Shown here: piece after piece, positions 1 to 46,040 of the stretch | How positions within the stretch are numbered: position 1 is the first letter of the stretch | Layout of the letters: every line of letters starts with the position of its first letter | From: Methylococcaceae bacterium | Lineage (GTDB): Bacteria > Pseudomonadota > Gammaproteobacteria > Methylococcales > Methylomonadaceae | Length of the DNA: 46,040 nucleotides | Assembly: GCA_947506155.1 (NCBI GenBank) | Contig: CANNNV010000004.1 | Coordinates: 1-46,040, forward strand | Direction: 5' to 3' | The notes under the pieces: model-generated | Told to the model about the DNA's origin: nothing | The model's database searches: none | The model's input: the letters and a program-made list of their open reading frames with translations, nothing else | Made by a program: the position numbers and the translations under genes

Positions 1-265
1 AAGATTGGTTCTGTTTGTTGAGAAAACAACGCAGAAATACCAATTTTCAATTTCAAATATCATTTTTTTAGATGTAAAGCCTAAAATTTCAGGCATAAAA
101 TCATCGCTGGGTTATGGTGTTTTTTATATTGGCCACGAAAAACACTACATGTGGTATTTTTAATAATTGTCAACCACTAGAAAAATGAGCGAACGATGAG
201 TGTATGTATTCATAAGTTATATTTTTACATACATTTGAATACATTAAAATCTACTTAGTAGCACC
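1..265. other. Non-coding left edge, downstream of hemY
   Basis: No convincing gene is visible in this AT-rich stretch. It lies beyond the hemY stop, so it may hold the 3' end of the hem transcript. Two weak inverted repeats can be seen. One is GCCT/AGGC around 80-95. The other is a near-palindrome at 138-161, with A5 and T5 ends and one internal mismatch, which could act as a weak bidirectional terminator. Neither is strong enough to call on its own. Confidence 0.4.
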
Positions 266-1495
266 TCAAAATAGCGAGTCAATTCCACTAACAATCGCGC
301 TAGATGCAACTTCCAGCCCTTGCTTATAACATTCGTTGGCTTTGTCTTTGTCGCCTTGGATAAACAACAAATCACCCAAGAGTTGATAAGCCGAAACAGT
401 AGGCTCTATTGAAATACTTTTATTCAAGTAAGTTTCGGCTTTTTGGTTCTCACCGCATCTCACGCTTAACTTGCCCAGCACCGTCAAAAATATCGCATCC
501 CGAGGATGCATAGGCAACCATTGTTCAGCGGTCTCAAGCTGCCTTGCCACATCTAACGACTGTACATTACCAAATAATACCACCAGGGTTTGATCCCAGG
601 TGGTCGACAAAGCTCTGGACAAAACACCTTCAATCTTTGCGCCCGCTTCAGCCTCTATCATGGCGGCGAAATAAATCGCCGAAACGCCTTTCATATTCCT
701 TATGTAATCAGGAATTTCGGACCATAGCGCTTCAATTTCATTAACATTGCCTCGGCCTGCCGCCTGTTTTAACAATTTACTAAAAACTTCGGTCTCTAGC
801 AGCTTTATCTCAGTTTCCATCAGCACTTTATGAGTATTTAAAGATGGAATCAATTTTCGGATGCCTTCCCAATCACCGGCCTGTTGATAAGCTTGGTGTA
901 ATAATTTCAACACACTGGCATGAGTCGGATCTATCGACTGCAAACGGGTCAGCGTTTCCAGCGCTTGTTCAAACTGTTTTTCAGATAAATGCAATTCGGC
1001 CTGAGTCAAGCCTATGGCCACGTCGGAACCTGGAGCCTGGACTGCGGCCTGTTTTAAATATTCATCCCGTTTATCAAATGCACCACGAGATTGCGCCGCT
1101 CTTGCGGCAGTTAAATAATGGATCAACGGAGCGCCACTGTGCGAGGCATGTTTAATCAATACCTTTTCGGCTTTTTCCCAGTTACCTTCCGCAGAATCGA
1201 CTAAGCCAGCAATCAGGGCTTCCTGAGAACGGTTAAATTTGATGCTTTTGCCACGATTTTTGATTTTTCCCGGCAACCTAAGTAGCCAACCCAAGCCTCT
1301 GAAAAGGATATAAAACACAAAAAAACCCATGATCAAACTAACCGCAAAAACGATCAATGAGGTTTCTAAGGACCAATGTCCGATGCCAATCAGCACATAA
1401 CCAGGGTTTTCAAATCCCCCCAGCCATTTATTAGCTAAAAATGCGGCAATAAGTGCAACCAGCAGCGAACCTAAGAAATACATTATATTTTTCAT
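266..1495 (-). CDS. hemY: HemY-like inner-membrane protein of the haem operon
   Basis: HemY is a membrane-anchored TPR-type protein coded with the haem genes in gammaproteobacteria. It is not the protoporphyrinogen oxidase also called HemY in Gram-positives. From the chosen ATG the protein is 409 residues, close to the E. coli length of about 398. It starts with two transmembrane helices (about residues 5-22 and 42-68) separated by a short loop, then a basic stretch and a long helical TPR-like region with the repeat pattern around ALETLTRLQSIDPTHASVLK and the C-terminal LLGDLLFIQGDKDKANECYK. An in-frame ATG 44 codons upstream lies inside hemX and precedes the first membrane helix, so I rejected it. 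The chosen ATG has AGGG at a suitable spacing and follows hemX by 16 bases. Last gene of hemC-hemD-hemX-hemY. Its precise biochemical role is unsettled in the family. Confidence 0.88.
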   Translation of the reverse strand: MKNIMYFLGSLLVALIAAFLANKWLGGFENPGYVLIGIGHWSLETSLIVFAVSLIMGFFVFYILFRGLGWLLRLPGKIKNRGKSIKFNRSQEALIAGLVDSAEGNWEKAEKVLIKHASHSGAPLIHYLTAARAAQSRGAFDKRDEYLKQAAVQAPGSDVAIGLTQAELHLSEKQFEQALETLTRLQSIDPTHASVLKLLHQAYQQAGDWEGIRKLIPSLNTHKVLMETEIKLLETEVFSKLLKQAAGRGNVNEIEALWSEIPDYIRNMKGVSAIYFAAMIEAEAGAKIEGVLSRALSTTWDQTLVVLFGNVQSLDVARQLETAEQWLPMHPRDAIFLTVLGKLSVRCGENQKAETYLNKSISIEPTVSAYQLLGDLLFIQGDKDKANECYKQGLEVASSAIVSGIDSLF

Positions 1496-1511
1496 ATATA
1501 TATGCCCTAGA

Positions 1512-2717
1512 TTATTGTGCGGCAGGTGCAGCGTCAACCGGTTCGACACTTCCACTCTCTTTAACAGGTGGTGCAGCTTCCACTTGGGCTGGCTTAGCTT
1601 TCTCAGCAGGCAGCATGGCTTTATCAACTTCCAGCCTTAGCTTGGTAATATCCCTAAGCATTTTCAGTGACAAACTGATATCGGGAAAATGGCTGCGGAG
1701 TTTTATCGCCGTAAATCGTTCCAGTTCGTTAATAAAACGACTGGTTTCGGAGTTCTGAGCAAAGTTTTTTTCCAGCCATTTTTTTGCATCGACCAGACTG
1801 ATTTGATAAAGCTGTTCATTTTGCTGAACCAAGGCGATTTTGACCATTTCCAGTTTTACGCTTAACTGCTCACGAATAAACTGGGCCTCTTCCGGCGTTA
1901 AAATTTCCTTGATCTGATGCTCAGTATGCCTAATCGTTACCATCTGTCCCAGTTGATCAAGTAAGGCGTGAACGTCCTTATCCGAAGACTCTTGAGTTAC
2001 AGGCTGCGGCGTCAAAGCCTTTCCGGTATAAGGTAAAAATAAAGTCAATCTGTCAATCTGATCTTGCAGCGATTGAATCGACGCATACATGCCAACAATA
2101 TCGGCCACTGCAACATTTTGAATCGCGGTAATATCCTTGGCAATTTGCTCGCGTATTTTGAACGCCCCAGCATCACCGCTTTCTCTAAGACGCTGATCCG
2201 CTGCTTCCAGGGCTTCACGGGTGGTATTAACATCGCCTATTAAATACAGACGCTGATTCGCTATGCTTAACAGGTATTCGGCATCGGCAATTAACCAGTC
2301 GCCACGGGTCTTACCCAGTTGACGCTGCACCTGTTGAATTGCAGCATTTAATTCATTCCGGGTACCATCTAATTTTTCGCTATGTAGCTGGGAAAAATCA
2401 GCCAGAGTTTTAGTAAAATGAGCATCTTTTCCAGCCACATTGGCTTCGACAGTTGCCAGTTGAGATTGAATCGCGGCAAGCTGCGCCTGATAACCGCTGA
2501 TCTGTTTTGACAACTCGATCAACTGCATATCACCTTTATTTACTTCTCCCCCCAAATCAGCCTGCTGGGTTCGTAATTCGTGAAATAAATAGTAGCCCGC
2601 ACCGGCCACACTGATGATAATAAGCAACATGATGACACCCAACCAGAGTCCGCTACGCGACCTGTGAACCTTGTTATTGTCACTCTGCTGTTCTTGTTTT
2701 TCAATCAACTCGGCCAC
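1512..2717 (-). CDS. hemX: HemX, membrane protein of the haem operon
   Basis: This is a 401-residue HemX of the gammaproteobacterial type, often mislabelled as uroporphyrin-III methyltransferase. A polar N-terminus of about 23 residues is followed by one transmembrane helix (about 24-46, LWLGVIMLLIIISVAGAGYY). A long coiled-coil segment comes next, with repeated Q, A, L and E (about 60-140). The helical HemX domain then follows, ending in a low-complexity Pro/Ala/Glu tail. The topology suggests a periplasmic domain held by an N-terminal anchor. Translation starts at GTG directly after the hemD stop, so the two are probably coupled. Function is poorly known; a scaffolding role for haem enzymes has been suggested for the family. 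Identification rests on domain order, length and position between hemD and hemY. Confidence 0.88.
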   Translation of the reverse strand: MAELIEKQEQQSDNNKVHRSRSGLWLGVIMLLIIISVAGAGYYLFHELRTQQADLGGEVNKGDMQLIELSKQISGYQAQLAAIQSQLATVEANVAGKDAHFTKTLADFSQLHSEKLDGTRNELNAAIQQVQRQLGKTRGDWLIADAEYLLSIANQRLYLIGDVNTTREALEAADQRLRESGDAGAFKIREQIAKDITAIQNVAVADIVGMYASIQSLQDQIDRLTLFLPYTGKALTPQPVTQESSDKDVHALLDQLGQMVTIRHTEHQIKEILTPEEAQFIREQLSVKLEMVKIALVQQNEQLYQISLVDAKKWLEKNFAQNSETSRFINELERFTAIKLRSHFPDISLSLKMLRDITKLRLEVDKAMLPAEKAKPAQVEAAPPVKESGSVEPVDAAPAAQ

Positions 2718-2718
2718 G

Positions 2719-3501
2719 CTATTCCCCTGTCACACATGTTATTACTGTCTTGAGAATTGCCGCATCGGTAGGACTCTCCGTCACAACAATTCGATTAAAG
2801 CCCATATCGGCGGCTATACACCTAATTCTATCGCTAACTACCACTAGGGGTATTAAGATCAATAGCCTATTGTTTTTATCACCCAGCATCAAGCTCAGAT
2901 TTTGTAAGGCTTCAGCACTGGTCACGGTAATGACATCTAGCCGGTGTTGGCTAAGCAAGTTGACCACTAGCGAGTTATCAATACAGGGAACTGTTCTTTG
3001 ATAGACTTCCAGATAATTAACGATTGCGCCTCTGCTGCGTAGCGTAGTTGCCAGCTGCTCGCGTCCGCCTACTCCGCGAATTATCAAAAACTTTTGTCCC
3101 TCAACGTGCTGTAGCTCGGGCATTGCCAGCAACGCCTCACTGTTATAACCGTTGTCAGGCACCAAATTGACCGGTAAGCCTGCCATTTTCATAGCGTACT
3201 TTGTTGCCTGACCCACGGCGACAAATCCGCCCCGCCCCGCCTTTTTCAAATGCGCTATTTTGCCACTATTCGCCTTTAGCGCAAAATTTACTGCATTGGC
3301 ACTGATAAAAATAACCCATTGGTATTCGTCCAAACTTTCCAGTGCAGCTGCTATCGCATCGGAATCATCTCTGGCAACAATCTCCAGCGTTGGAAAACGC
3401 ACGGCTATGCCACCTTGCTCTTCAATTAAACTGCTCAAATTTTCCGCCTGATGCTCAGGTCGCGTCACTAAAACATGGACGCTCTGTATAGACTTATTCA
3501 A
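2719..3501 (-). CDS. hemD: Uroporphyrinogen-III synthase
   Basis: HemD closes and isomerises hydroxymethylbilane (the HemC product) to uroporphyrinogen III in the cytoplasm. The family N-terminus [24 protein letters not shown] is present. The rest keeps the sparse HemD pattern: a mid-region [24 protein letters not shown], and a second-half [11 protein letters not shown] followed by [14 protein letters not shown] chose a TTG start giving 260 residues, normal for the family, overlapping hemC by 8 bases. An ATG 18 codons further upstream (3555) would add residues unlike any HemD and overlap hemC by 62 bases. No clear ribosome-binding site precedes the TTG, which fits translational coupling to hemC. 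The sequence is poorly conserved in this family, so context contributes to the call. Confidence 0.87.
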
Positions 3502-4438
3502 GCAGCAGTGCTTGCAAAATTTTATCTGCACCCTGAGCCAATAAATCTTCGGCAATCATTGTTCCGATAGCTTCAGCGCTGTCTTGAGCGCCTGTCCGTT
3601 CAGCCCTATAAATCACCTTACCATCAGGACTACCAACCAAGCCGCGCATAAATAACTGCGCTCCCAGCAATTGTGCAAAACCCGCGATCGGCACTTGGCA
3701 GCCACCATTCAAACGCGCATTCATGGCTCTTTCTGCACTTACACAAACACCGGTTTCACTATCGTGCAACACGCTCAGCATTGCATTAATTTCCGAATCG
3801 TCCAGCCGACATTCGATACCGATAGCGCCTTGACCTATTGCTGGCAAACTGACAGCAGGAGCTAGGCATTGAGTAATGCGCTCAGCCATGCCCAATCGCT
3901 TTAAACCTGCTGTAGCCAAAATAATCGCATCGTATTCTCCGGCATCAAGCTTGGACAAGCGAGTATTAACATTACCTCTTAACGACAATATTTCAGCATC
4001 AGGATAAAGCGCCTTAATTTGGCATTGTCTGCGTAAACTGGAGGTGCCGATTCTGGCATTCGTCGGCAGTTCCTGTAAGCTTGAATAATCCCTGGAAACA
4101 AAAGCGTCTGTAGGATCTTCTCGATTTAGTATAGCGGCCAAATGCAGACCGACCGGAAACTCCACTGGCACATCCTTCATTGAATGCACGGCAATATCGG
4201 CTAAACCTTCCAGCATGCCTTGCTCCAGTTCTTTGACAAATAAACCTTTGCCGCCGATCTTGGCCAAAGGCGCGTCAAGTATCCTGTCACCTTGCGTGGT
4301 CATTTTGACCAACTCTGTTTTGCACCCCGGAAACGCCTGTTCCAACCGCGCTGCAACATGCTCTGCCTGCCACAGCGCCAAAGGACTCCGGCGCGTTGCA
4401 ATACGAATAATTTTCTTAGCCAAAACAACACACCTCAT
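3494..4438 (-). CDS. hemC: Porphobilinogen deaminase (hydroxymethylbilane synthase)
   Basis: HemC polymerises four porphobilinogens into hydroxymethylbilane. Clear family landmarks are [27 protein letters not shown] with the catalytic Asp (residue 89), [19 protein letters not shown], and [13 protein letters not shown], whose Cys247 binds the dipyrromethane cofactor. First gene of the hemCDXY operon, divergent from argH. The start is debatable. The ATG given here has no obvious ribosome-binding site, and a GAGG lies just inside it. A TTG five codons later (4423) has that GAGG at 9-base spacing and would give [15 protein letters not shown], aligning from residue 1 with the E. coli protein and placing the catalytic Asp and Cys at 84 and 242. 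The true start may therefore be 4423. Confidence 0.95.
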
Positions 4439-4507
4439 TATTCAACAACAAATAAACTTATTGTAACCTGTCTAAGACAATATCCGGCTCTGTTATTCAC
4501 CACGAAG

Positions 4508-4523
4508 ACACGAAGTTTCGTGT
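4508..4523. repeat. Perfect 16-bp palindrome between hemC and argH
   Basis: ACACGAAGTTTCGTGT reads the same on both strands and sits in the divergent hemC/argH gap. The left arm is preceded by a further CACGAAGA copy, giving a short direct repeat. It could be an operator for the divergent pair or a piece of a dispersed repeat; the sequence alone does not decide. Confidence 0.4.
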
Positions 4524-4574
4524 ACAGGATGATTAACTTTTAGGTTTTTTTGTTGCGTCATTATCAGTTAGAAC

Positions 4575-4604
4575 TTACCGGAGCGTAAGCTTTAGTTGTA
4601 TAAT
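4575..4604 (+). promoter_or_regulatory. Candidate sigma-70 promoter of argH-cyaA
   Basis: A perfect -10 hexamer TATAAT lies at 4599-4604, with a weak -35 (TTACCG, 4575-4580) 18 bases upstream. The start of transcription would be near 4611, leaving a leader of about 28 bases before the argH ATG. The -35 matches the consensus poorly, so only the -10 is persuasive. Confidence 0.42.
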
Positions 4605-4638
4605 TTAACGCTTTTCAGTTCATCTAAATAAAGCCACC

Positions 4639-6033
4639 ATGAGCAACGTTAACTCCGACAAACTTTCCAGCGCCCGCTTTACCCAGGCAACAGATGCCTT
4701 TGTCGAGATATTTACCGCTTCAGTCAATTTTGATCAGCGCATGGCCAGCCAGGATATTGACGGCTCTATCGCCCATGCCAAAATGCTAGCATCTTGCGGC
4801 ATCCTGACCGAACTGGAACGTGATGATATTATCAGCGGACTTAACCAAATCAGCCAGGAAATCAGTAACGGTGAATTTGTCTGGTCGATACAGCAAGAAG
4901 ATGTGCATATGAACATCGAAGCACGGTTAACTGACTTGATTGGTATAGCCGGAAAAAAACTGCATACCGGACGCTCGCGCAATGATCAGGTGGCAACCGA
5001 CATTCGTCTTTATCTGCGCAGTGAAATCAAACAGATTTCCAGCCAACTTACCCGTTTGCAAACCGCTATTCTGGATTTGGCCGAGCAGCATAGTGATACC
5101 ATTATGCCGGGCTTTACGCATTTACAAGTCGCCCAACCTATCACCTTCGGTCATCACCTGATGGCTTGGTTCGAGATGCTTAAGAGAGATCAGGAAAGAC
5201 TTCAAGATTGCTGCAAGCGCGTCAACATTATGCCGCTGGGCTCTGCTGCACTGGCTGGAACCAGTTACCCGATAGACCGCCAGATGACCTCGGATTTATT
5301 AGGTTTTAGCCGACCTTCAGCAAACTCGCTAGATTCAGTCAGTGACCGGGATTTTGCCATTGAATTTACCGCTGCCGGCAGTTTGATCATGATGCATTTA
5401 TCTCGTTTTTCTGAAGAATTAATCTTGTGGTCCAGTGCTCAATTTGACTTTATCGACATGCCCGATGCATTTTGCACCGGTTCCTCTATCATGCCGCAAA
5501 AGAAAAACCCCGATGTGCCTGAATTGGTGCGCGGTAAATCAGGCCGGGTAACTGGTCATCTGGTTGCACTGCTGATGCTAATGAAAAGCCAACCACTGGC
5601 TTACAACAAAGACAATCAGGAAGATAAAGAACCGCTGTTCGATACGGCAGACACTTTAATTAATTGCTTGCGTGCTTACGCCGACATGGTTCCTCATCTG
5701 GTCGCCAAAAAAGCCAATATGTACAATTCTGCCAAACGTGGCTTTGCAACAGCGACCGACCTTGCCGATTACCTGGTACGCAAAGGTATGGCGTTTCGTG
5801 ATGCGCATGAAGCGGTGGGACTGGCCGTGCGCCTGGGAGTAGAAAGTCAGCGGGATTTATCCGAACTGCCGCTAGCAGAACTACAGAATTTTTCGATGCT
5901 AATTACTGAAGATGTGTTTGACTATTTAACCCTGGAAGGCTCGGTTGCGGCTCGAAAACACATAGGTGGTACCGCGCCTGAAACAGTCAGGCTCGCGATA
6001 CAAACAGCACGAAAAGCGCTGATACCGATGTAG
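4639..6033 (+). CDS. argH: Argininosuccinate lyase
   Basis: ArgH cleaves argininosuccinate to arginine and fumarate, the last step of arginine synthesis. The 464-residue protein carries the fumarase/aspartase superfamily signature [12 protein letters not shown] (about residues 282-293), whose serine is the catalytic one. It also has the family blocks [38 protein letters not shown] and [12 protein letters not shown]. Length matches E. coli ArgH (457). The start codon gives a normal N-terminus, although no strong ribosome-binding site is seen. It is followed after only 4 bases by cyaA, so the two are probably cotranscribed. The hem/argH/cyaA neighbourhood is recurrent in gammaproteobacteria. 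Confidence 0.97.
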
Positions 6034-18655: not shown

Positions 18656-18692
18656 GTCATGTCGGGTTACGCTGGCGCTAACCCGACCTACG
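18656..18692. repeat. REP-like palindrome between narG and narH
   Basis: Arms GTCGGGTTA (18661-18669) and TAACCCGAC (18679-18687) flank the imperfectly self-complementary CGCTGGCGC. On the minus strand the unit begins CGTAGGTCGGG, and its TAG is the stop codon of narG. Elements of the form GTAGG(T/C)(T/C)GGGTTAGCG...CGTAACCC are widespread palindromic repeats in proteobacteria. In RNA it would fold into a hairpin directly between the narG stop and the narH ribosome-binding site. Confidence 0.75.
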
Positions 18693-21600
18693 CTTGTTCT
18701 GGCTTCGGTTCTTCCAGCCAATCCACTTTGCTCATTTTGCGAATAATCACAAACTCGTCCCGATTGGAACCGACCGTGCCGTAATAATTAAAGCCGTAAC
18801 TCAGCTGGGCGTAACCACCGATCATATGTGTCGGTTTAAGCGTCGCCCGGGTCACCGAGTTATGAATGCCGCCGCGTCCGCCGGTGGTTTCAGCGCCCGG
18901 CATATTGACGATCTTTTCCTGGGCGTGATACATCATGCACATGCCTTCGGGCACCCGCTGACTGACCACGGCTCTGGCGACCAGCGCGCCATTGACATTA
19001 AACGCTTCTATCCAGTCGTTATCCTTAATCCCGACTTTCGCCGCATCGATTTCACCCATCCACACGATAGGCCCGCCGCGCGACAAAGTCAGCATCAGTA
19101 GATTGTCGGTATAGGTGCTGTGTATGCCCCATTTCTGGTGCGGGGTTAAAAAATTCAACACCAGTTCGTCATTGCCGTTGGGCTTTTGGCCCAAAATCGG
19201 CGTGATCGAGCGGGTATCGACCGGCGGCTTGTAAACGCACAAAGTCTCGCCAAACGCCCGCATCCAGGAGTGATCCTGATAAAACTGCTGACGGCCGGTC
19301 AATGTGCGCCAGGGAATCCGCTCGTGAACATTGGTGTAACAGGCGTTATAACAAACTTGCTCGGATTCCAGTCCGCTCCAGGTCGGCGACGAAATAATCT
19401 TGCGCGGCTGTGCTTGTACATCGCGGAACCGGATTTTGTCGTCTTCGCGAGGCTTTGCCAGATGGGTGTGATCCCGTCCGGTGATTTTGCTCAAGGCCTC
19501 CCAGGCTTTGACTGCGACATGGCCGTTGGTTTCCGGTGCCAGCATCAAAATGACTTCGGTCGCATCAATATCGGATTCGATACGCGGTAAGCCTTTACTA
19601 ATGCCCTCCTCGGTCACCAGATAGTTCAACTCACCCAGTTGCTTGACTTCGGTCTCGGTGTTCCAGGCTATGCCTTTACCGCCATTGCCGATTTTACTGA
19701 GCAATGGCCCCAGCGAGGTGAACATCTTGTAAGTATTAGGATAATCGCGCTCGACCACGACCAACGATGGCATGGTTTTGCCTGGAACCGGCTCGCACTC
19801 ACCTTTTTTCCAGTCCTTGACCTCAAACGGCTGGGCCAGTTCTCCGGGCGTGTCATGCAGCACCGGCACGGTGACGATGTCTTGTTCCAGGCCCAAATGG
19901 CCTACGGTCAATTCCGAGAATTTTTTGGCTATGCCTTTGTAAATATCCCAGTCGGAGCGCGATTCCCAGGCAGGATCGACAGCCTTGGACAAGGGATGGA
20001 TAAACGGGTGCATGTCCGAAGTATTCAGGTCGTTTTTCTCGTACCAGGTTGCGGTCGGCAAAATGATATCCGAATACAAACAAGTCGTGGACATACGAAA
20101 ATCCAGCGTGACCAGCAAATCGAGTTTACCTTCTGCGGCTTTTTCATGCCAGACCACTTCCGACGGCTTGTCGCCGTCATCGCCCAGATCCTTGCCTTGT
20201 ATGCCATGCTGGGTGCCGAGCAAATATTTCAAAAAGTACTCATGACCCTTGCCCGATGAGCCTAATAAATTGGAGCGCCAGACAAACATATTGCGCGGAA
20301 AGTTAAGCGGATTATCCGGATCTTCGCAGGACATTTTTAGACTGCCGTTTTTCAGGCTAGCTACAACATAATCGACCGGCGCTATGCCTGCGGCTTTTGC
20401 AGCGCGCACCACTTGCAAGGGATTGGTCTGCAATTGCGGCGCCGACGGCAACCAACCCATGCGCTCTGATTTGACGTTAAAATCGATCAAACTGCCTTGC
20501 CAGTCTTCAGGCTTGGCGGTCGGCGACAAAATCTCGCTGACTTTAAGGGTTTCGTAACGCCATTGACTGGTGTGATTATAGAAAAACGAGGTGCTGTTCA
20601 TTTGCCGGGGCGGACGTTTCCAGTCCAGACCGAAGGCCAGCGGTAACCAGCCGGTTTGCGGACGCAATTTTTCCTGCCCCACATAATGCGCCCAGCCGCC
20701 TCCGGACTGGCCGACGCAACCGCACAGCATCAGCATATTCATGATGCCGCGATAATTCATATCCATGTGGTACCAGTGATTGATACCTGCCCCCAAAATC
20801 ACCATCGAGCGACCTTTGGTCTTTTCGGCGTTGATCGCAAATTCCCGCGCCACCGCAATCACATTGCTACGCGACACGCCGGTGATTTTTTCCTGCCAGG
20901 CTGGGGTGTACGGAACATCTTCGTCATAAGATGCCGCGACATTGCCGCCTCCCAAACCTCGATCTATGCCGTAATTGGCCACCAGCAAATCAAACACCGT
21001 GGTGGCTAAGACTTCTGTACCGTCGGCCAGGATTATTTTTTTAACCGGCACATTACGCTTTTGAATCGCGTCATGGGCGGAATGGGTGAAATGCGGATGT
21101 TCGGAGCCGCCAAAATACGGAAAACCAACGCTAGCGACCTCGTCTTTAGTGTCGATCAGACTCAGCCGTAGCTTGACCGCCTGATTGTCTGAGGTTTTTT
21201 GTTCTATATTCCACTGCCCGCTTTCGCCCCAGCGAAAACCAATAGAGCCGCAAGGCGGAACAATCTGACCGTTAAGTTCATCATAAGCGACGGTTTTCCA
21301 GTCGGGATTATTGTCCTGACCTAAGCTGCCGGAAAAGTCCGAGGCTCTGAGGAACCTGTCCTGCACATAGTAGCCGTCCTGCTCTTTGAGCATCACCAGA
21401 AACGGCAGATCGGTGTTTTCTCGGACATAGCCATTGAAATATGGGCTTTGCCCTTCGACATGGAATTCTTTTAAGATCACATGGCCTATCGCCATCGCCA
21501 GCGCAGCATCCGTGCCTTGTTTGGGATGCAGCCATAAGTCGGCAAACTTGCTGGCTTCCGAATAATCAGGACTGACCACCACGACTTTCGCGCCTTTATA

Positions 21601-22413
21601 ACGCGCTTCGGTCATGAAATGCGCATCGGGAGTCCGAGTTTGCGGTACGTTAGAACCCCACAGCATTAAAAATCCTGCGTTATACCAGTCCGCTGATTCC
21701 GGCACGTCGGTTTGCTCGCCCCAGGTTTGCGGGGATGCAGGCGGCAAATCGCAGTACCAGTCGTAAAAACTCATGCTGACGCCACCGATCAGCGACAAAT
21801 AACGGCTGCCGGCTGCATAAGACACCATCGACATCGCCGGTATCGGCGAAAAGCCGATGATGCGGTCGGGGCCGAAGGTTTTTGCGGTGTAAATATTGGC
21901 CGCCGCGATGATTTCGTTGACCTCATCCCAGTTGGCCCTAACCAATCCGCCCAAGCCGCGCTTGGATTTGTATTCGGCGCTTTTAAGCGGATCTTCGACG
22001 ATGGATGCCCAGGCGTCTACCGGATCTAAGCTTAATCTGGCTTCACGCCATAATCTAACCAACCGTCCGCGTATCATCGGAAATTTAAGCCGATTGGCGC
22101 TGTACAAATACCAGGAATAACTCGCGCCGCGCGGACAACCGCGAGGCTCGTGATTCGGCAGATCAGGACGGGTGCGCGGGTAATCGGTTTGCTGGGTTTC
22201 CCAGGTTACCAGGCCATTTTTGACATAGATTTTCCAGCTGCAAGAGCCGGTGCAGTTCACGCCATGCGTGGAGCGCACAATCTTGTCATGCTGCCAGCGC
22301 GAGCGGTAACTGTTTTCCCAGCTACGATCTTCATTGGTTACCACTCCGTGAGTGCCGGAGAAGGTGTCTACTTTTTTCTTGAAAAACAGCAAGCGGTCCA
22401 GGAAATGACTCAT
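18688..22413 (-). CDS. narG: Respiratory nitrate reductase alpha subunit (molybdopterin)
   Basis: NarG is the catalytic subunit that reduces nitrate to nitrite at a bis-MGD molybdenum centre on the cytoplasmic side. The 1241-residue protein matches E. coli NarG (1247). The FS0 [4Fe-4S] ligands are visible as His50, Cys54, Cys58 and Cys93 in STHGVNCTGSCSW and PRGCPRG. Asp222 in WYCDLPPASPQTWGEQ corresponds to the Mo-ligating aspartate of the E. coli enzyme. Further landmarks are WGSNVPQTRTPDAHF and CGCVGQSGGGWAHYVGQEK. No twin-arginine signal is evident, so this is the membrane-bound cytoplasm-facing type. ATG start with AGGT upstream. Its TAG stop lies inside a palindromic repeat. Confidence 0.98.
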   Translation of the reverse strand: MSHFLDRLLFFKKKVDTFSGTHGVVTNEDRSWENSYRSRWQHDKIVRSTHGVNCTGSCSWKIYVKNGLVTWETQQTDYPRTRPDLPNHEPRGCPRGASYSWYLYSANRLKFPMIRGRLVRLWREARLSLDPVDAWASIVEDPLKSAEYKSKRGLGGLVRANWDEVNEIIAAANIYTAKTFGPDRIIGFSPIPAMSMVSYAAGSRYLSLIGGVSMSFYDWYCDLPPASPQTWGEQTDVPESADWYNAGFLMLWGSNVPQTRTPDAHFMTEARYKGAKVVVVSPDYSEASKFADLWLHPKQGTDAALAMAIGHVILKEFHVEGQSPYFNGYVRENTDLPFLVMLKEQDGYYVQDRFLRASDFSGSLGQDNNPDWKTVAYDELNGQIVPPCGSIGFRWGESGQWNIEQKTSDNQAVKLRLSLIDTKDEVASVGFPYFGGSEHPHFTHSAHDAIQKRNVPVKKIILADGTEVLATTVFDLLVANYGIDRGLGGGNVAASYDEDVPYTPAWQEKITGVSRSNVIAVAREFAINAEKTKGRSMVILGAGINHWYHMDMNYRGIMNMLMLCGCVGQSGGGWAHYVGQEKLRPQTGWLPLAFGLDWKRPPRQMNSTSFFYNHTSQWRYETLKVSEILSPTAKPEDWQGSLIDFNVKSERMGWLPSAPQLQTNPLQVVRAAKAAGIAPVDYVVASLKNGSLKMSCEDPDNPLNFPRNMFVWRSNLLGSSGKGHEYFLKYLLGTQHGIQGKDLGDDGDKPSEVVWHEKAAEGKLDLLVTLDFRMSTTCLYSDIILPTATWYEKNDLNTSDMHPFIHPLSKAVDPAWESRSDWDIYKGIAKKFSELTVGHLGLEQDIVTVPVLHDTPGELAQPFEVKDWKKGECEPVPGKTMPSLVVVERDYPNTYKMFTSLGPLLSKIGNGGKGIAWNTETEVKQLGELNYLVTEEGISKGLPRIESDIDATEVILMLAPETNGHVAVKAWEALSKITGRDHTHLAKPREDDKIRFRDVQAQPRKIISSPTWSGLESEQVCYNACYTNVHERIPWRTLTGRQQFYQDHSWMRAFGETLCVYKPPVDTRSITPILGQKPNGNDELVLNFLTPHQKWGIHSTYTDNLLMLTLSRGGPIVWMGEIDAAKVGIKDNDWIEAFNVNGALVARAVVSQRVPEGMCMMYHAQEKIVNMPGAETTGGRGGIHNSVTRATLKPTHMIGGYAQLSYGFNYYGTVGSNRDEFVIIRKMSKVDWLEEPKPEQA

Positions 22414-22438: not shown

Positions 22439-22469
22439 CTCGTTCCCACGCTCTGCGTGGGAATGCCGT
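22439..22469. repeat. REP palindrome (TTCCCACGC / GCGTGGGAA) between narK and narG
   Basis: Arms TTCCCACGC (22443-22451) and GCGTGGGAA (22455-22463) flank a 3-base loop, preceded by CTCG and followed by TGCCGTAGGG. A third, partial arm in inverse orientation (TTCCACGCAGGG) lies at about 22480-22491. The same CTCG plus palindrome occurs at 45857-45883, immediately upstream of a RAYT transposase gene. It lies in the gap just upstream of narG and could form a hairpin in the nar mRNA. Confidence 0.82.
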
Positions 22470-22511
22470 AGGGTTTATTTCCACGCAGGGTTGTCACTGT
22501 CATTTGGCATT

Positions 22512-22529
22512 GCGCGAATAAATTCGCGC
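22512..22529. repeat. Second palindrome between narK and narG
   Basis: A perfect palindrome, GCGCGAAT-AA-ATTCGCGC, lies 43 bases from the neighbouring REP, just downstream of the narK stop. Sequences of the form GGGCGCGAAT..ATTCGCGC are a recurrent dispersed palindrome in gammaproteobacteria. Together with its neighbour it makes a compound repeat in the narK-narG gap. Confidence 0.65.
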
Positions 22530-22540
22530 CCACAACATTG

Positions 22541-25216
22541 TTAACAAGGCATAGCCGCTGTTTTTCGCGCGTAATTCCACCAGGTGATGCCGATGCAAAC
22601 AACATAAAAAGCAATAAAACCATACAGCGCGGCATCCGGCGTGCCGGTCATATCAATAGCCGTGCCGTAACTTTTCGGAATAAAAAATGCGCCGTAAGCT
22701 GCAATCGCCGAGCTAAAACCCAGCACCGCCGCCGCTTCTTTGGCCGCATCTTTTTTGGCTTTAGCAATCGCCTCGTCGCCCTGCCCTTTGACCGCACACA
22801 AACGTTCGGTCATAAAGATCACCGGTATCATCCTGAAGGTAGAACCATTGCCTATGCCGGTGGTGATAAACAACAGCATGAACATCGCCAGGAAGCCCCA
22901 GAAATCACCAGGATTTCCGGCTCCGGGCATAAAATGCAACACGCCGAACACCGCAGCTATCATGATCACAAAATTCCATAACGTCACTTGCGCACCGCCC
23001 AGTTTGTCGGCCAACCAACCGCCGACCGGTCTGATCAAGGCGCCAACCAGCGGCCCTAAAAAGGCGTACTGGGTTGGATTGACCTCGGGGAACAAGATTT
23101 TAATCAGCATCGGAAAACCCGCCGCATAACCGATAAACGAGCCGAAAGTGCCGGTATAAAGCCAGCACATCAGCCAGTTATGTTTACGCTTGAAAATGAT
23201 AGACTGTTCCCTGAACGAGGCTTTGGCGGACGCAATGTCATTCATGCCGAACCAGGCCGCGATGCTGGTGGCGATGATAAACGGCACCCAGATGAAACCA
23301 GCGTTTTGCAGCCAGACCGATTTGGTCACACCAGCTTTAACCCAGACTTGCGGGTCGCCACCTAAAGAACCAAATACACCCGCAGCAATAACCAGCGGCA
23401 CTACAAACTGCACGGTGCTAACACCCAGATTACCCAAGCCGGCATTCAAACCTAGAGCCGTGCCTTTTTGTGACTGCGGATAAAAGAAACTGATATTGGC
23501 CATGCTGGAGGCAAAATTGCCGCCGCCAAAACCGCATAACAAGGCCAGGACCACCATTAACAGATAAGGCGTTTCTGGATTTTGCACCGCAAAACCTATC
23601 CATAACGACGGCAATAATAATGAGGCGGTACTGATGGTCGTCCAGCGACGACCGCCAAAAATAGGCACCATGAACGAATAGAATATCCGTAAGGTTGCAC
23701 CCGAAAGCCCTGGTAACGCCGCCAACCAGAACAATTCGTTGGTGGTATATTTAAAGCCGATACTGGGCAGGTTAATAACCACCACACTCCACACCATCCA
23801 CACCGCAAATCCAAGCAATAACGCAGGAATACTGATCCACAGATTACGGGTGGCAATGCGCTTGCCGGTCTTTTCCCAAAAGCTCTTATCTTCAGGATTC
23901 CAGTCGGTCAGCACTAGCGGTGACGGATGACTCAGCTCATGCAAATCTTTGGAGATTTTGGCCAGCTCAGGCACAACCCGGCGTTCCATCCGAACAATGG
24001 AAAAGTGCATCCAAGTCAGCGCGATCGTCATCAACACAAACAGCAGCATGAAGCAGCTGCTCCAGATGCCGGTCAAATCGTTCAGCATGCCGAAAGTCAA
24101 CGGCAGCAAGAAACCACCCAGGCCACCGATCATGCCTACTGCGCCGCCAACCGCGCCGACATTATCGGGATAATACACCGGAATATGCTTGTACACCGCC
24201 GCCTTGCCAAAAGACATGAATAAACCCAGCGTAGAAATCAACAGGATAAAACCCATAGGTTGTAGCGCCAGACTAAAAGCAATATCGCCTTTAGAGCCGT
24301 GTACGATGTACTCGGTTGGTGGGTAAGACAGGAAAAAGGTACAGACCGTGCCAACAATAAACGTCCAGTACATCAATAACCGCGCCCCGTAACGGTCGGA
24401 TAACCAGCCACCTAAGGCCCGAAACAGACTGGCAAAAATGGAATACGCCGCCGCCAGCATGCCCGCCGTCTTGATATCAAAACCGTAAGCACCAACCAGA
24501 TAGCGAGGCAGCCAAAGCGCTAAAGCAACAAAAGCGCCAAACACGCAAAAATAATACAGCGAAAATCGCCAGACCCGCATATCCTTCAGCGGTTCCAGCT
24601 GCTTTAGAAATGATTCAGGTTTGAGGCCGGACTTGCGTCTGGCTTTGAGCATCGGCTCATCTTCAGTGAAAAACCAGAAAACAGCAGCCATCAGCAACAG
24701 CACCAAGGCCCAGATTTGGGCCACCGCATGCCAGCCAAAGGCAACCATCACAAAAGGTGCCGTGAACTTGGTCACCGCCGCGCCGACGTTGCCGAGACCA
24801 AAAATACCCAAGGCCGTACCTTGCTGCTCCCTGGGAAACCAACGAGATACATAAGCGATACCGACTGCAAAGGAACCGCCGGCAACACCGATACCCAAGG
24901 CCGCCACCAGAAACATCGTATAGGTTTCAACCGTGGTCAACAATAAAGTCGCAATAGCCGCTGTCACCATCACCAGCACATAAACGATACGACCGCCGTA
25001 TTGGTCGCTCCAGATGCCCAGCATCAAACGTATCAATGAGCCGGAAAGTATCGGCGTACCGACCAGCAAACCAAATTCAGTCTCGCTTAAACCCAAGTCT
25101 TTCTGAATTTGCAGACCGATAATGGAAAAGATGGTCCAAACTGCAAAACATGTGGTGAAGGCCACCGTACTGGCGGTTAGTGCGTGTTTTTGTTGAGAGG
25201 GATTAATGTCTGCCAC
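22541..25216 (-). CDS. narK: Fused NarK1-NarK2 nitrate/nitrite transporter
   Basis: This inner-membrane MFS protein imports nitrate and exports nitrite for NarGHI. At 891 residues it is twice the usual length, because two complete MFS domains are joined end to end. Half 1 spans about residues 1-430 (AVWTIFSIIGLQIQKDLGLSETEFGLLVG; GNVGAAVTKFTAPF). Half 2 spans about 455-891 (NLWISIPALLLGFAVWMVWSVV; GLGNLGVSTVQFVVPL). Each half has its own glycine-rich nitrate signature region. Fused NarK proteins of this kind are known in denitrifiers such as Paracoccus, where one half behaves as a nitrate/H+ symporter and the other as a nitrate/nitrite exchanger. First gene of the operon, GTG start with AAGGA upstream. 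Confidence 0.94.
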   Translation of the reverse strand: MADINPSQQKHALTASTVAFTTCFAVWTIFSIIGLQIQKDLGLSETEFGLLVGTPILSGSLIRLMLGIWSDQYGGRIVYVLVMVTAAIATLLLTTVETYTMFLVAALGIGVAGGSFAVGIAYVSRWFPREQQGTALGIFGLGNVGAAVTKFTAPFVMVAFGWHAVAQIWALVLLLMAAVFWFFTEDEPMLKARRKSGLKPESFLKQLEPLKDMRVWRFSLYYFCVFGAFVALALWLPRYLVGAYGFDIKTAGMLAAAYSIFASLFRALGGWLSDRYGARLLMYWTFIVGTVCTFFLSYPPTEYIVHGSKGDIAFSLALQPMGFILLISTLGLFMSFGKAAVYKHIPVYYPDNVGAVGGAVGMIGGLGGFLLPLTFGMLNDLTGIWSSCFMLLFVLMTIALTWMHFSIVRMERRVVPELAKISKDLHELSHPSPLVLTDWNPEDKSFWEKTGKRIATRNLWISIPALLLGFAVWMVWSVVVINLPSIGFKYTTNELFWLAALPGLSGATLRIFYSFMVPIFGGRRWTTISTASLLLPSLWIGFAVQNPETPYLLMVVLALLCGFGGGNFASSMANISFFYPQSQKGTALGLNAGLGNLGVSTVQFVVPLVIAAGVFGSLGGDPQVWVKAGVTKSVWLQNAGFIWVPFIIATSIAAWFGMNDIASAKASFREQSIIFKRKHNWLMCWLYTGTFGSFIGYAAGFPMLIKILFPEVNPTQYAFLGPLVGALIRPVGGWLADKLGGAQVTLWNFVIMIAAVFGVLHFMPGAGNPGDFWGFLAMFMLLFITTGIGNGSTFRMIPVIFMTERLCAVKGQGDEAIAKAKKDAAKEAAAVLGFSSAIAAYGAFFIPKSYGTAIDMTGTPDAALYGFIAFYVVCIGITWWNYARKTAAMPC

Positions 25217-45178: not shown

Positions 45179-45487
45179 ATGCGGATTATCGCTAAAAGCA
45201 CTTTAAAGAAATTTTGGGAACAGCCCCAATATAGTGATTCTCAAGCGCCACTGGAAAGTTGGCATGAAGAAGCATTGAAAGCAATATGGACATCACCACA
45301 GGCGGTTAAGGTTAATTATGGTAATGCCAGTATTTGCGCTAATAATCGAGTGGTTTTTAACATCGGTGGCAATAAATACAGGCTGGTGGTTGAAATGCAG
45401 TACAGAGCTTGTATTGCATGGGTAAAATTTATCGGTACCCATGAACAATATAACAAGATTGATGTGGAGAACGTAAGTGAATATTAA
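45179..45487 (+). CDS. higB: HigB-type toxin (mRNA interferase)
   Basis: This 102-residue toxin belongs to the HigB class of ribosome-dependent mRNA interferases with a RelE-like fold. The family pattern is clear: RIIAKSTLKKFWEQ at the start, APLESWHEEALKAIWTSPQAVK, ICANNRVVFNIGGNKYRLVVEMQY and VWVKF-type IAWVKFIGTHEQYNKID near the end. Its 3' end overlaps higA by 11 bases. A palindrome sits just upstream. Active conserved basic and aromatic residues appear intact. Confidence 0.92.
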   Translation: MRIIAKSTLKKFWEQPQYSDSQAPLESWHEEALKAIWTSPQAVKVNYGNASICANNRVVFNIGGNKYRLVVEMQYRACIAWVKFIGTHEQYNKIDVENVSEY

Positions 45488-45833
45488 GCCTATCCGTAAC
45501 GACGTAGACCTTGCGCTTACATTTAAGCGTCTTGAGGTGATATTTCAAGCCAACGAGGGAACGCCGGAAGCGGAAGAAATGGAGGTTCTAGTGGCCTTGG
45601 TGGAGGCTTATGAAAACAAATACTATCCCATTAGTTCAGCAGATCCTATTGAGGCTATTAAGTTCCGTATGGAGCAACAAGGCCTTACGCCACGCGATCT
45701 TGAGGCATACATTGGCTCCAGTGGTCGGGTTTCTGAAGTGCTAAATCGTAAACGCTCATTGAGTCTACGCATGGTTAAGCGTCTACATGACGGGTTGCGA
45801 ATTCCCTATGAAAGCTTATTGTCCGATGCGTAA
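45477..45833 (+). CDS. higA: HigA-type antitoxin with helix-turn-helix
   Basis: This 118-residue antitoxin pairs with HigB. The N-terminal half (KPIRNDVDLALTFKRLEVIFQANEGTPEAEEMEVLVALVEAYENKYYPI) is the partner-binding segment typical of the family. The C-terminal half is an XRE-like helix-turn-helix (KFRMEQQGLTPRDLEAYIGSSGRVSEVLNRKRSLSLRMVKRLHDGLRIPYESLL). GTG start inside the end of higB, so it is translationally coupled. Likely represses the pair through the palindrome at 45152-45164. Confidence 0.93.
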   Translation: MNIKPIRNDVDLALTFKRLEVIFQANEGTPEAEEMEVLVALVEAYENKYYPISSADPIEAIKFRMEQQGLTPRDLEAYIGSSGRVSEVLNRKRSLSLRMVKRLHDGLRIPYESLLSDA

Positions 45834-45856
45834 TCATTAAAATCTTCCTCAATTTT

Positions 45857-45890
45857 CTCGTTCCCACGCTCCTGCGTGGGAACGCATACG
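45857..45890. repeat. REP palindrome upstream of the RAYT gene
   Basis: CTCG, then GTTCCCACGC (45860-45869), a TCCT loop and GCGTGGGAAC (45874-45883), followed by GCATACG. It is the same unit as at 22439-22469. Location immediately before a RAYT gene is typical for the REP family mobilised by that transposase. Confidence 0.88.
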
Positions 45891-45901
45891 GACGCTGAAT
45901 A

Positions 45902-46040
45902 ATGGGTAGAAGCCGCTACAAAATAACCCAACCCCAACAGGCGCACTTCGTCACCCTGACAGTGTTGCACTGGATTCCGGTATTCACCCGCCCTGATACC
46001 GTCAACATCCTGCTCGATTCCCTGCGTTTTTTAAGCAAGG
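45902..46040 (+). CDS. REP-associated tyrosine transposase (RAYT), 5' part
   Basis: This reading frame runs off the window after 46 codons: MGRSRYKITQ, then HFVTLTVLHWIPVFTRPDTV and NILLDSLRFLSK. The start MGRSRYK(I/V), the HFVT-T beta strand and WxPVFTRP are characteristic of TnpA-REP/RAYT proteins, single-strand-specific Y1 relatives of IS200/IS605 transposases. The HUH motif and catalytic tyrosine lie beyond the window, so activity cannot be judged. A REP palindrome sits 12 bases upstream of the start. Confidence 0.82.
   Translation, partial: MGRSRYKITQPQQAHFVTLTVLHWIPVFTRPDTVNILLDSLRFLSK

Follow-up and report, generated by a model that had tools for sequence, protein, structure and literature searches.

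The stretch of DNA analysed here (the window, an entire contig, C4, of 46,040 bp from a 2.86-Mb draft genome, G000, of a relative of methane oxidisers, in 226 contigs and 90% complete) ends in what is best read as a real RAYT with its cognate REP, belonging to a mobile REP-RAYT-REP unit. It is probable that the window breaks off within the left part of such a unit and that the unit rides partly in defence operons; our confidence in this explanation as a whole is good rather than full, because the evidence on sites is confined to left flanks. The habit of the relatives of residing in defence operons is the surprising part. The features of the window are as follows.

18688-22413, minus strand: narG, downstream of the solo REP; named from sequence, relatives found.
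22439-22464, minus strand: in the narK-narG spacer, a solo REP belonging to the class found beside the RAYT; in the narG direction its form is that of a right end (GCATTCCCACGCAGAGCGTGGGAACGAG).
22541-25216, minus strand: narK-type nitrate transporter gene composed of two MFS halves, lying upstream of the solo REP; named from sequence.
45179-45487, plus strand: higB-like toxin gene (PF09907), directly upstream of the unit.
45477-45833, plus strand: higA-like antitoxin gene (HTH_3); the REP begins 23 bp past its stop.
45853-46040, plus strand: 188-bp repeat, 99% identical to positions 11015-11202 of contig C94 (the end of that contig), with differing flanking DNA.
45857-45889, plus strand: left end of the unit, a REP hairpin with a CTCG foot (CTCGTTCCCACGCTCCTGCGTGGGAACGCATAC); the right end, seen on contig C68 and in relatives, is its inverse.
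45902-46040, plus strand: RAYT (tnpA-REP) gene, first 46 codons, ended by the contig end.

The palindrome CTCGTTCCCACGCTCC(T)GCGTGGGAA was confirmed at the two window sites where the sequence-only reading had placed it, beside the RAYT (45857-45883) and in the nar operon (22439-22464). Before the RAYT, on the plus strand, the CTCG foot lies at 45857-45860 and the arms GTTCCCACGC and GCGTGGGAAC at 45860-45869 and 45874-45883; the full read of 45857-45889 is CTCG-TTCCCACGC-TCCT-GCGTGGGAA-CGCATAC. In the nar operon CTCG lies at 22439-22442 and the arms, with one mismatch, at 22442-22451 and 22455-22464. A chance palindrome was ruled out by the arm count, since the arm CGTTCCCACGC with at most one mismatch occurs five times in the window against 0.56 expected, and none of 100 shuffles reached five. 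Across the 2.86-Mb draft, the palindrome pattern was found at six sites and its reversed-pattern control at none, and the exact arm gave 22 matches versus three for the control (17 separate sites by our count). The two outcomes that the sequence-only reading had named as speaking against it were a palindrome absent elsewhere and a truncated RAYT beside a REP of a different class; the palindrome does occur elsewhere, the RAYT is free of mutations in its 46 codons and its REP is of the same class.

The window piece of the RAYT (46 aa) is 96% identical to a complete RAYT of genome G036 and is too short to match any family. A mutated gene was rejected as an explanation of its length, as the reading frame is broken off by the contig end, in C4 and C94 at one and the same base. 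The genome contains at least two left ends of the unit, on C4 and C94, which are 99% identical and have unrelated upstream DNA: higBA on C4, and on C94 the stretch after an S1-domain/Tex-like gene, named from sequence. Contig C68 opens within a RAYT gene, of which it has the final 66 codons, nearly identical to the RAYTs of G036; 11 bases past the stop is an inverted REP ending in CGAG, the right end of the unit. A complete unit is assembled nowhere in this genome, the left and right ends being on separate contigs, and assembly breaks within the repeated gene would explain the incomplete copies. The proposed check that the complete RAYT keeps its HUH motif and tyrosine could be made in part: the tyrosine is present in the C-terminal part on C68 (YIHQNPVKRGY), and no HUH-bearing middle piece of this RAYT was found in the assembly. 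On C25 a decayed RAYT C-terminus adjoins a REP. We also noted that the left end on C94 (10899-11202, or 5900-6203 of locus L088) comes after the first codons of what we read as another RAYT-like frame (MERSRYKIF...), a relic with its own degenerate REP upstream, so that one RAYT is nested at the remains of another. Other Y1 genes of the genome lie on C20, C40, C71, C113 and C138; those on C40 and C113 were rejected as partners of the REP, being clearly other RAYT subtypes, and those on C20, C71 and C138 were read by eye only.

The relatives analysed are the best 80 of 214 loci; the RAYTs against which similarity was ranked include several from restriction operons. The RAYT and REP counts, end alignment, orientation, neighbour clustering, identity, tree and selection analyses leave out 19 loci that failed the strict RAYT pattern. 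Four duplicate loci (L093, L110, L126 and L146) account for 7 of 75 RAYT rows, which leaves 68 distinct RAYTs; gene calls are our own longest-ORF calls, in which small ORFs are unreliable. The unit in these relatives is about 615 bp long and consists of a REP, a RAYT of 176 aa with HUH and Tyr motifs, and an inverted REP. Within 200 nt, 64 of the 68 distinct RAYTs have a REP of the same class upstream, 65 have one downstream and 62 have one on both sides; the RAYT of L119 is the single case with a REP on neither side. In the closest members the upstream arm begins 42 nt before the ATG and the downstream arm 10-12 nt past the stop. At close upstream spacing there are 36 RAYTs, and in most of them similarity is bounded by CTCG...CGAG and the sequence outside is unrelated.

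The residues H60, H62 and Y138 (A1 numbering) are invariant in all eight aligned relatives. All five complete relatives score above the NF047646 cut-off of 80 (95.6-103.2 bits) and none of the five matches NF033573; the one member searched against Pfam had no match at 0.001. A profile search of the PDB matched TnpA-REP 4er8 (E = 9e-7), and a structure predicted with low confidence (pLDDT 64.6) likewise appears to match 4er8 and IS200/IS605 transposases. The HuH motif varies, with NHCH in many members and NHLH or NHMH in others; the Y motif is YIHQNP or YIHHNP, and WQ is present. The best 80 of the 214 loci span 57-100% identity and are hosted by Gamma- and Betaproteobacteria, Desulfuromonadales, Hydrogenedentota and other bins. 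RAYTs of many gammaproteobacterial families, of Nitrotoga, of Advenella and of an Acidobacteriota bin have the same hairpin beside them; it is also found in a bin placed in Myxococcota by the tree tool and, on the upstream side only, in a Desulfuromonadales bin. REP copies in other genomes reach at most 101 pattern matches (G021), a count over both strands in which self-paired sites are counted twice, and REPs proper, which often exceed 100 per genome, are more abundant than the 17 exact-arm sites found here. In one locus (L083, contig C11 of G022, positions 1-6000) dense REP arrays surround a single RAYT and overlap predicted frames, with 39 arm matches at up to one mismatch between 438 and 4260.

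Among 61 genomes, 29 have both RAYT and REP, 23 neither, four only the RAYT and five only the REP (Fisher p = 3e-8, kinship ignored), and the copy numbers of the two correlate (Spearman 0.72, kinship likewise ignored); the reversed-pattern control was zero in each genome. With a REP of one class on both sides of 62 of the 68 RAYTs, the RAYT and the REP are, on the evidence of their distribution, cognate. This bears out the earlier suggestion that the RAYT is linked to the REP family beside it.

Restriction genes are frequent neighbours of the relatives. Clustering of neighbours at the 65 distinct loci, with a Pfam check of one representative each, found HsdR, HsdS and HsdM at 21, 15 and 11 loci respectively. 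Genes of the hsd type were present in the examined DNA at 22 of these loci and at four of the 19 pattern-failing ones (L115, L129, L131 and L155), that is at 26 of 84, always co-oriented with the RAYT, and were absent from the examined DNA at 58; short HsdR matches in L094 and L124 were discounted, as they overlap or adjoin the RAYT. By our reading the RAYT lies between hsd genes at 14 of the 22 loci, and by our count it stands directly before hsdR, or is parted from it only by RhuM or Fic genes, at 15. Accessory genes at hsd loci are RhuM, Fic and YhcG-type nucleases. At a 50% identity cut the HsdR proteins separate into ten clusters, some proteins being partial and one cluster resting on a 103-aa fragment, and 15 changes of the restriction label are needed on the RAYT tree, at least ten of them forced by well-supported branches, which makes several separate entries into restriction loci probable. 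Shuffled labels need 20.4 changes on average, with 5 of 500 shuffles as low as 15, so by this measure the label is also clustered on the tree.

In one lineage of eight loci (lineage A), identities are about 76-92% for the RAYT, 77-93% for HsdR, 83-93% for HsdM and 37-65% for HsdS. The identities of RAYT and HsdR rise and fall together in most pairs of this lineage, which suggests that the cassette travels as one and the unit rides in it; HsdS does not follow them. Over all 197 pairs the Spearman correlation between RAYT and HsdR identity is 0.60. Two loci from one sample, L080 in a Methylomonas bin and L141 in a Methylophaga bin, share RAYT at 99%, HsdR at 98%, HsdM at 99% and HsdS at 34% identity; this may be a recent transfer of the cassette with a change of specificity, or a binning error or contamination.

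As a control for the bias of the ranking, relatives were also retrieved with the window's own 46 codons, giving 72 RAYT loci. Six of the 72 RAYTs have one of the listed HSDR_N matches no more than 5 kb away, where 0.58 would be expected (p = 3e-5); among these six, the pair in G031 is a weak partial match. Canonical RAYTs of another subtype were also found near HSDR_N, at 5 of 127 loci against 1.11 expected (p = 0.006, again among the matches listed), and part of the association is thus general to RAYTs. The link with restriction is a property of the relatives and not of the window, since the known left flanks in this genome are higBA and the S1/Tex-like stretch.

Other defence loci contain the unit as well. 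In L128 (4057-8299) the RAYT is flanked by cas7c and cas4 of a type I-C CRISPR operon, and in L084 (1-4442) by cas10 and csm3 of a type III-A one; in L168 it stands beside a type III methylase, and in L102 DdmD is two genes upstream of it; by position, clustering and tallies, L130 resembles L128, and L121 and L169 resemble L168. PADLOC, applied to 142 of the 144 proteins within two genes of RAYTs without type I restriction, gave 152 families, with type III methyltransferase (3 members) and Cas8c (2 members) among the commonest listed; a distant control of 142 of 174 proteins, chosen by order, gave 62 families, at least one of them from the same CRISPR operon (Csm5 of L084). These tallies show the 25 commonest families and are not meant as rates. 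When near proteins were scanned singly, six of the first ten matched and four did not; a further ten gave one DdmD and nine without a match.

Of the RAYTs whose two neighbours share an orientation, 33 have that orientation too and five the opposite one (15 to 1 at restriction loci, 18 to 4 elsewhere). Taken singly, 49 of 60 upstream and 45 of 65 downstream neighbours are co-oriented, against a baseline of 329 of 472 adjacent pairs, so that there is no downstream excess. Behind this pattern there may be read-through expression, selection against antisense insertion, or insertion on one strand at replication forks; IS200/IS605 elements are described, in the part of PMC6006769 available to us, as targeting the lagging strand template.

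It is nearly an even question whether the defence association needs a special cause, or whether it reflects survivorship in islands that tolerate insertions and travel often, where small mobile genes would accumulate. The enrichment of the other RAYT subtype near HSDR_N, the ranking of the 80 loci by likeness to RAYTs that partly come from restriction operons, and the defence families obtained from distant genes of the same loci (62 versus 152 near the RAYT) are all in keeping with such a bias. The placement within operons and the full co-orientation with hsd genes seem, however, stronger than residence in an island would predict.

For the mobility of the unit, the sites occupied here were looked up in congeners. 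All 19 congener loci with the C94 flank lack both RAYT and REP (17 cover at least 840 bp downstream and two about 260 bp), and all four long higBA matches lack the unit, each with 1,500 bp of downstream DNA covered; both comparisons concern the left flank only. Five short, weak higBA matches, possibly not orthologous, are also without the unit. Copies in different flanks and congener sites free of the unit, as expected of a mobile element, were thus found for left flanks, and the absence in congeners could be loss. Genes are cut at the borders of the unit in two loci. In L100 a truncated hsdR start is followed by the unit and then by a second hsdR start, and in L079 a second copy of the unit truncates an ORF that we read as KilA-N-like and is followed by an apparent hsdM tail. 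Several copies per genome were also seen: besides the two near-identical left ends in G000, the genome G036 has three intact RAYTs in one locus and G024 two identical copies in tandem, which does not fit a single-copy, immobile, housekeeping-like gene. The dS of 0.51-0.67 between the G036 copies indicates that these are old, maintained genes and no fresh duplicates, and dN/dS is 0.02-0.09 in all 15 pairs of six RAYTs, the three G036 copies included, as is typical of maintained genes; the G024 tandem could be a duplicate made by recombination.

A domesticated, immobile RAYT of the classical REPtron kind, which spreads REPs only, gains extra copies by homologous recombination between REPs and crosses species only with whole operons, would account for part of these data, and we consider it a rather doubtful explanation of the whole. 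The available part of Corneloup 2021 (PMC8266576) describes RAYTs as single-copy in most cases and mobility of tnpA-REP as being without evidence. In the accessible part of PMC3390384, Pseudomonas RAYTs track the strain tree and are stable and syntenic in nine genomes, with one extra copy possibly of lateral origin. The parallel identities of RAYT and HsdR in lineage A and the identical tandem pair of G024 also agree with an immobile RAYT. It accords poorly with the 99% identity of the left ends on C4 and C94, which stand in unrelated flanks that occur without the unit in congeners, with the presence of the unit beside HsdR of ten clusters and at CRISPR and type III restriction loci, and with the genes truncated at its borders. 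The mobile REP-RAYT-REP unit accommodates these observations better, and the proposal of an active or recently active system holds to that extent: the two left ends point to recent movement of the RAYT unit, while recent seeding of the nar operon is not borne out, as described below.

REPs also occur inside restriction genes. In the central linker of hsdS they are in frame in L079 (position 7504, on the RAYT strand), L097 (8737; it reads LLSF-PRSGVGTQ-GEVEW) and L116 (24), and the hsdS homologues in L096 and L101 are without a REP. At one linker of hsdR they are in frame, in two reading frames, in L095 (2686), L097 (12348) and L116 (4028). Together with the truncated genes at unit borders, these sites make it plausible that REPs serve as points of operon reshuffling. 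One could go further and regard the unit as a selected part of defence operons, in which hairpins between methylase or specificity genes and restriction genes tune expression, or REPs recombine hsdS halves and accessory genes. The co-orientation with hsd genes at 22 of 22 loci, the position before hsdR at 15 of these, the in-frame REPs, the purifying selection on three co-resident copies and the divergence of HsdS in lineage A beside well-conserved HsdM and HsdR would all fit. We nevertheless think it unlikely, since the position of the unit varies (between M and S, between S and R, or after R), most loci have no hsd genes, type I systems work without the unit, and a successful selfish gene is also expected to be under purifying selection. 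HsdS, moreover, varies fast in type I systems generally. Equally improbable in our view is the broader proposal that REP-RAYT units are a recurrent selected module, which would enter defence operons (type I and III restriction, CRISPR and others) in the orientation of the operon, set the ratio of protective to attacking genes by its hairpins, supply in-frame REP linkers for the reshuffling of hsdS and hsdR and travel across phyla in cassettes; if true, it would explain the spread of a supposedly domesticated transposase.

The second window site had been taken as a sign that the system recently seeded the nar operon. This REP lies in the 127-bp narK-narG spacer, 25 bp before the start of narG. 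Among 27 narG loci of 24 genomes, a hairpin of the same class precedes narG in five (G000, G004, G007, G008 and G046, the last belonging to another family), the spacers of G007 and G008 holding hairpin pairs; one-arm remnants are found in the narK-narG spacer of G001, G002 and G016, and the G009 spacer has a hairpin of similar design with a different stem. The remaining loci have other spacer sequence, several with other inverted repeats. On account of these congener hairpins the nar REP was rejected as a recent product of the window RAYT; it looks old and shared rather than freshly made by the copy 23 kb away, and is most likely inherited, given the same-class hairpins in the same spacer of congeners. 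A second palindrome (of the GCGCGAATAAATTCGCGC type) lies beside the nar REP at 22500-22535 of the window, with similar ones in the G002 and G016 spacers. From this palindrome and the similar or other inverted repeats of congeners, the narK-narG spacer is, as judged by its sequence, a place where several repeat families settle. The genome also has a second narG on C42 (12731-13156; 87% identity over the 142 aa searched), which has no REP upstream. A regulatory role of the nar REP, as a hairpin maintained by selection and not a trace of transposition, would suit the recurrence of the class in the same spacer of five genomes and of other inverted repeats in further congeners, and is improbable in view of at least nine congeners with unrelated spacer DNA, three with only a one-arm remnant and the hairpin-free second narG of the same genome.

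The mobile unit that we favour would work as follows. It would be a self-contained mobile REPtron of about 615 bp, consisting of an outward-facing REP with its CTCG foot, a 176-codon gene for a HUH/Tyr single-strand transposase and an inverted hairpin with its CGAG end. We infer that the transposase acts on single-stranded DNA, where it recognises the hairpins and cuts at their feet, and that it moves the entire unit to new sites by autonomous transposition; it would also move single or paired REPs, and solo REPs, that of the nar operon included, would be old products or remnants of ends. The unit would reach distant bacteria in part by riding in chromosomal defence operons (type I and III restriction, CRISPR and DdmDE), in which it would sit between or beside genes and be co-oriented with the hsd genes. 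Plasmids and phages were rejected as main vehicles: at E <= 1e-30 a single plasmid record among 72,556, from Salinivibrio and 562 kb long, had a relative, at E <= 1e-20 none of 50,697 phage records did, and no relative was confirmed among viral contigs.

Hitchhiking in restriction or CRISPR cassettes offers a testable route by which REP/RAYT systems reach new genomes, and residence in defence operons may be how a supposedly immobile gene family moves between species. The in-frame REPs of the hsdS linker tie the repeat system to the evolution of restriction specificity. With its compact form, sharp ends, one hairpin conserved across lineages and near-identical copies in one genome, the unit is tractable for a transposition assay. 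Searches on restriction, hsdS and defense islands, which covered few subscription journals, yielded no paper placing RAYTs within restriction or CRISPR operons and none on hsdS with REPs or on a tyrosine transposase with a defense island; publications that name both RAYTs and restriction systems, PMC3390384 among them, draw no link between the two in their available parts.

Among known systems, REP-flanked RAYTs have been described as units recalling transposons (Nunvar 2010, PMC2817692, in the part available). As far as the accessible parts of that paper and of PMC8266576 go, the REPtrons formed by RAYT/TnpA-REP genes share with the present unit a HUH/Tyr gene between two inverted REPs and further REPs in the genome, and the RAYTs of the unit are members of NF047646. 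REPtrons have a GT[AG]G foot, whereas the unit has CTCG; it also differs in its few REPs, in having several copies in some genomes and in the evidence pointing to movement as a unit. The TIRtrons or TIRYTs (Di Nocera 2013, PMC3733652, from the portion available) resemble it in having a RAYT-like gene between non-GTAG terminal inverted repeats and moderately abundant solo repeats; here, unlike there, the repeat is itself a near-perfect hairpin, and the GGGGWSAS motif was not seen in the ends aligned. IS200/IS605 elements have the same Y1 HUH fold, terminal hairpins and multiple copies, but their Y motif is YxxxQ, whereas the unit has YIHQNP (class 2) and no second gene such as tnpB inside. Closest by motifs, as judged from its description, appears to be TnpA-Y1 subclass 2.6, which is Bertels group 5 (Quentin 2018, PMC6006769). 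According to the part of that paper available, this subclass shares YIH[QN]NP, WQ, a median length of 179 aa (176 here) and atypical flanking hairpins that are copied elsewhere. Its motif is NH[LIV]H, whereas many members here have NHCH, and it is mostly found in Bacteroidetes, with 41% identity between intragenomic copies, whereas the present unit is mostly found in Gammaproteobacteria and has one strongly conserved hairpin.
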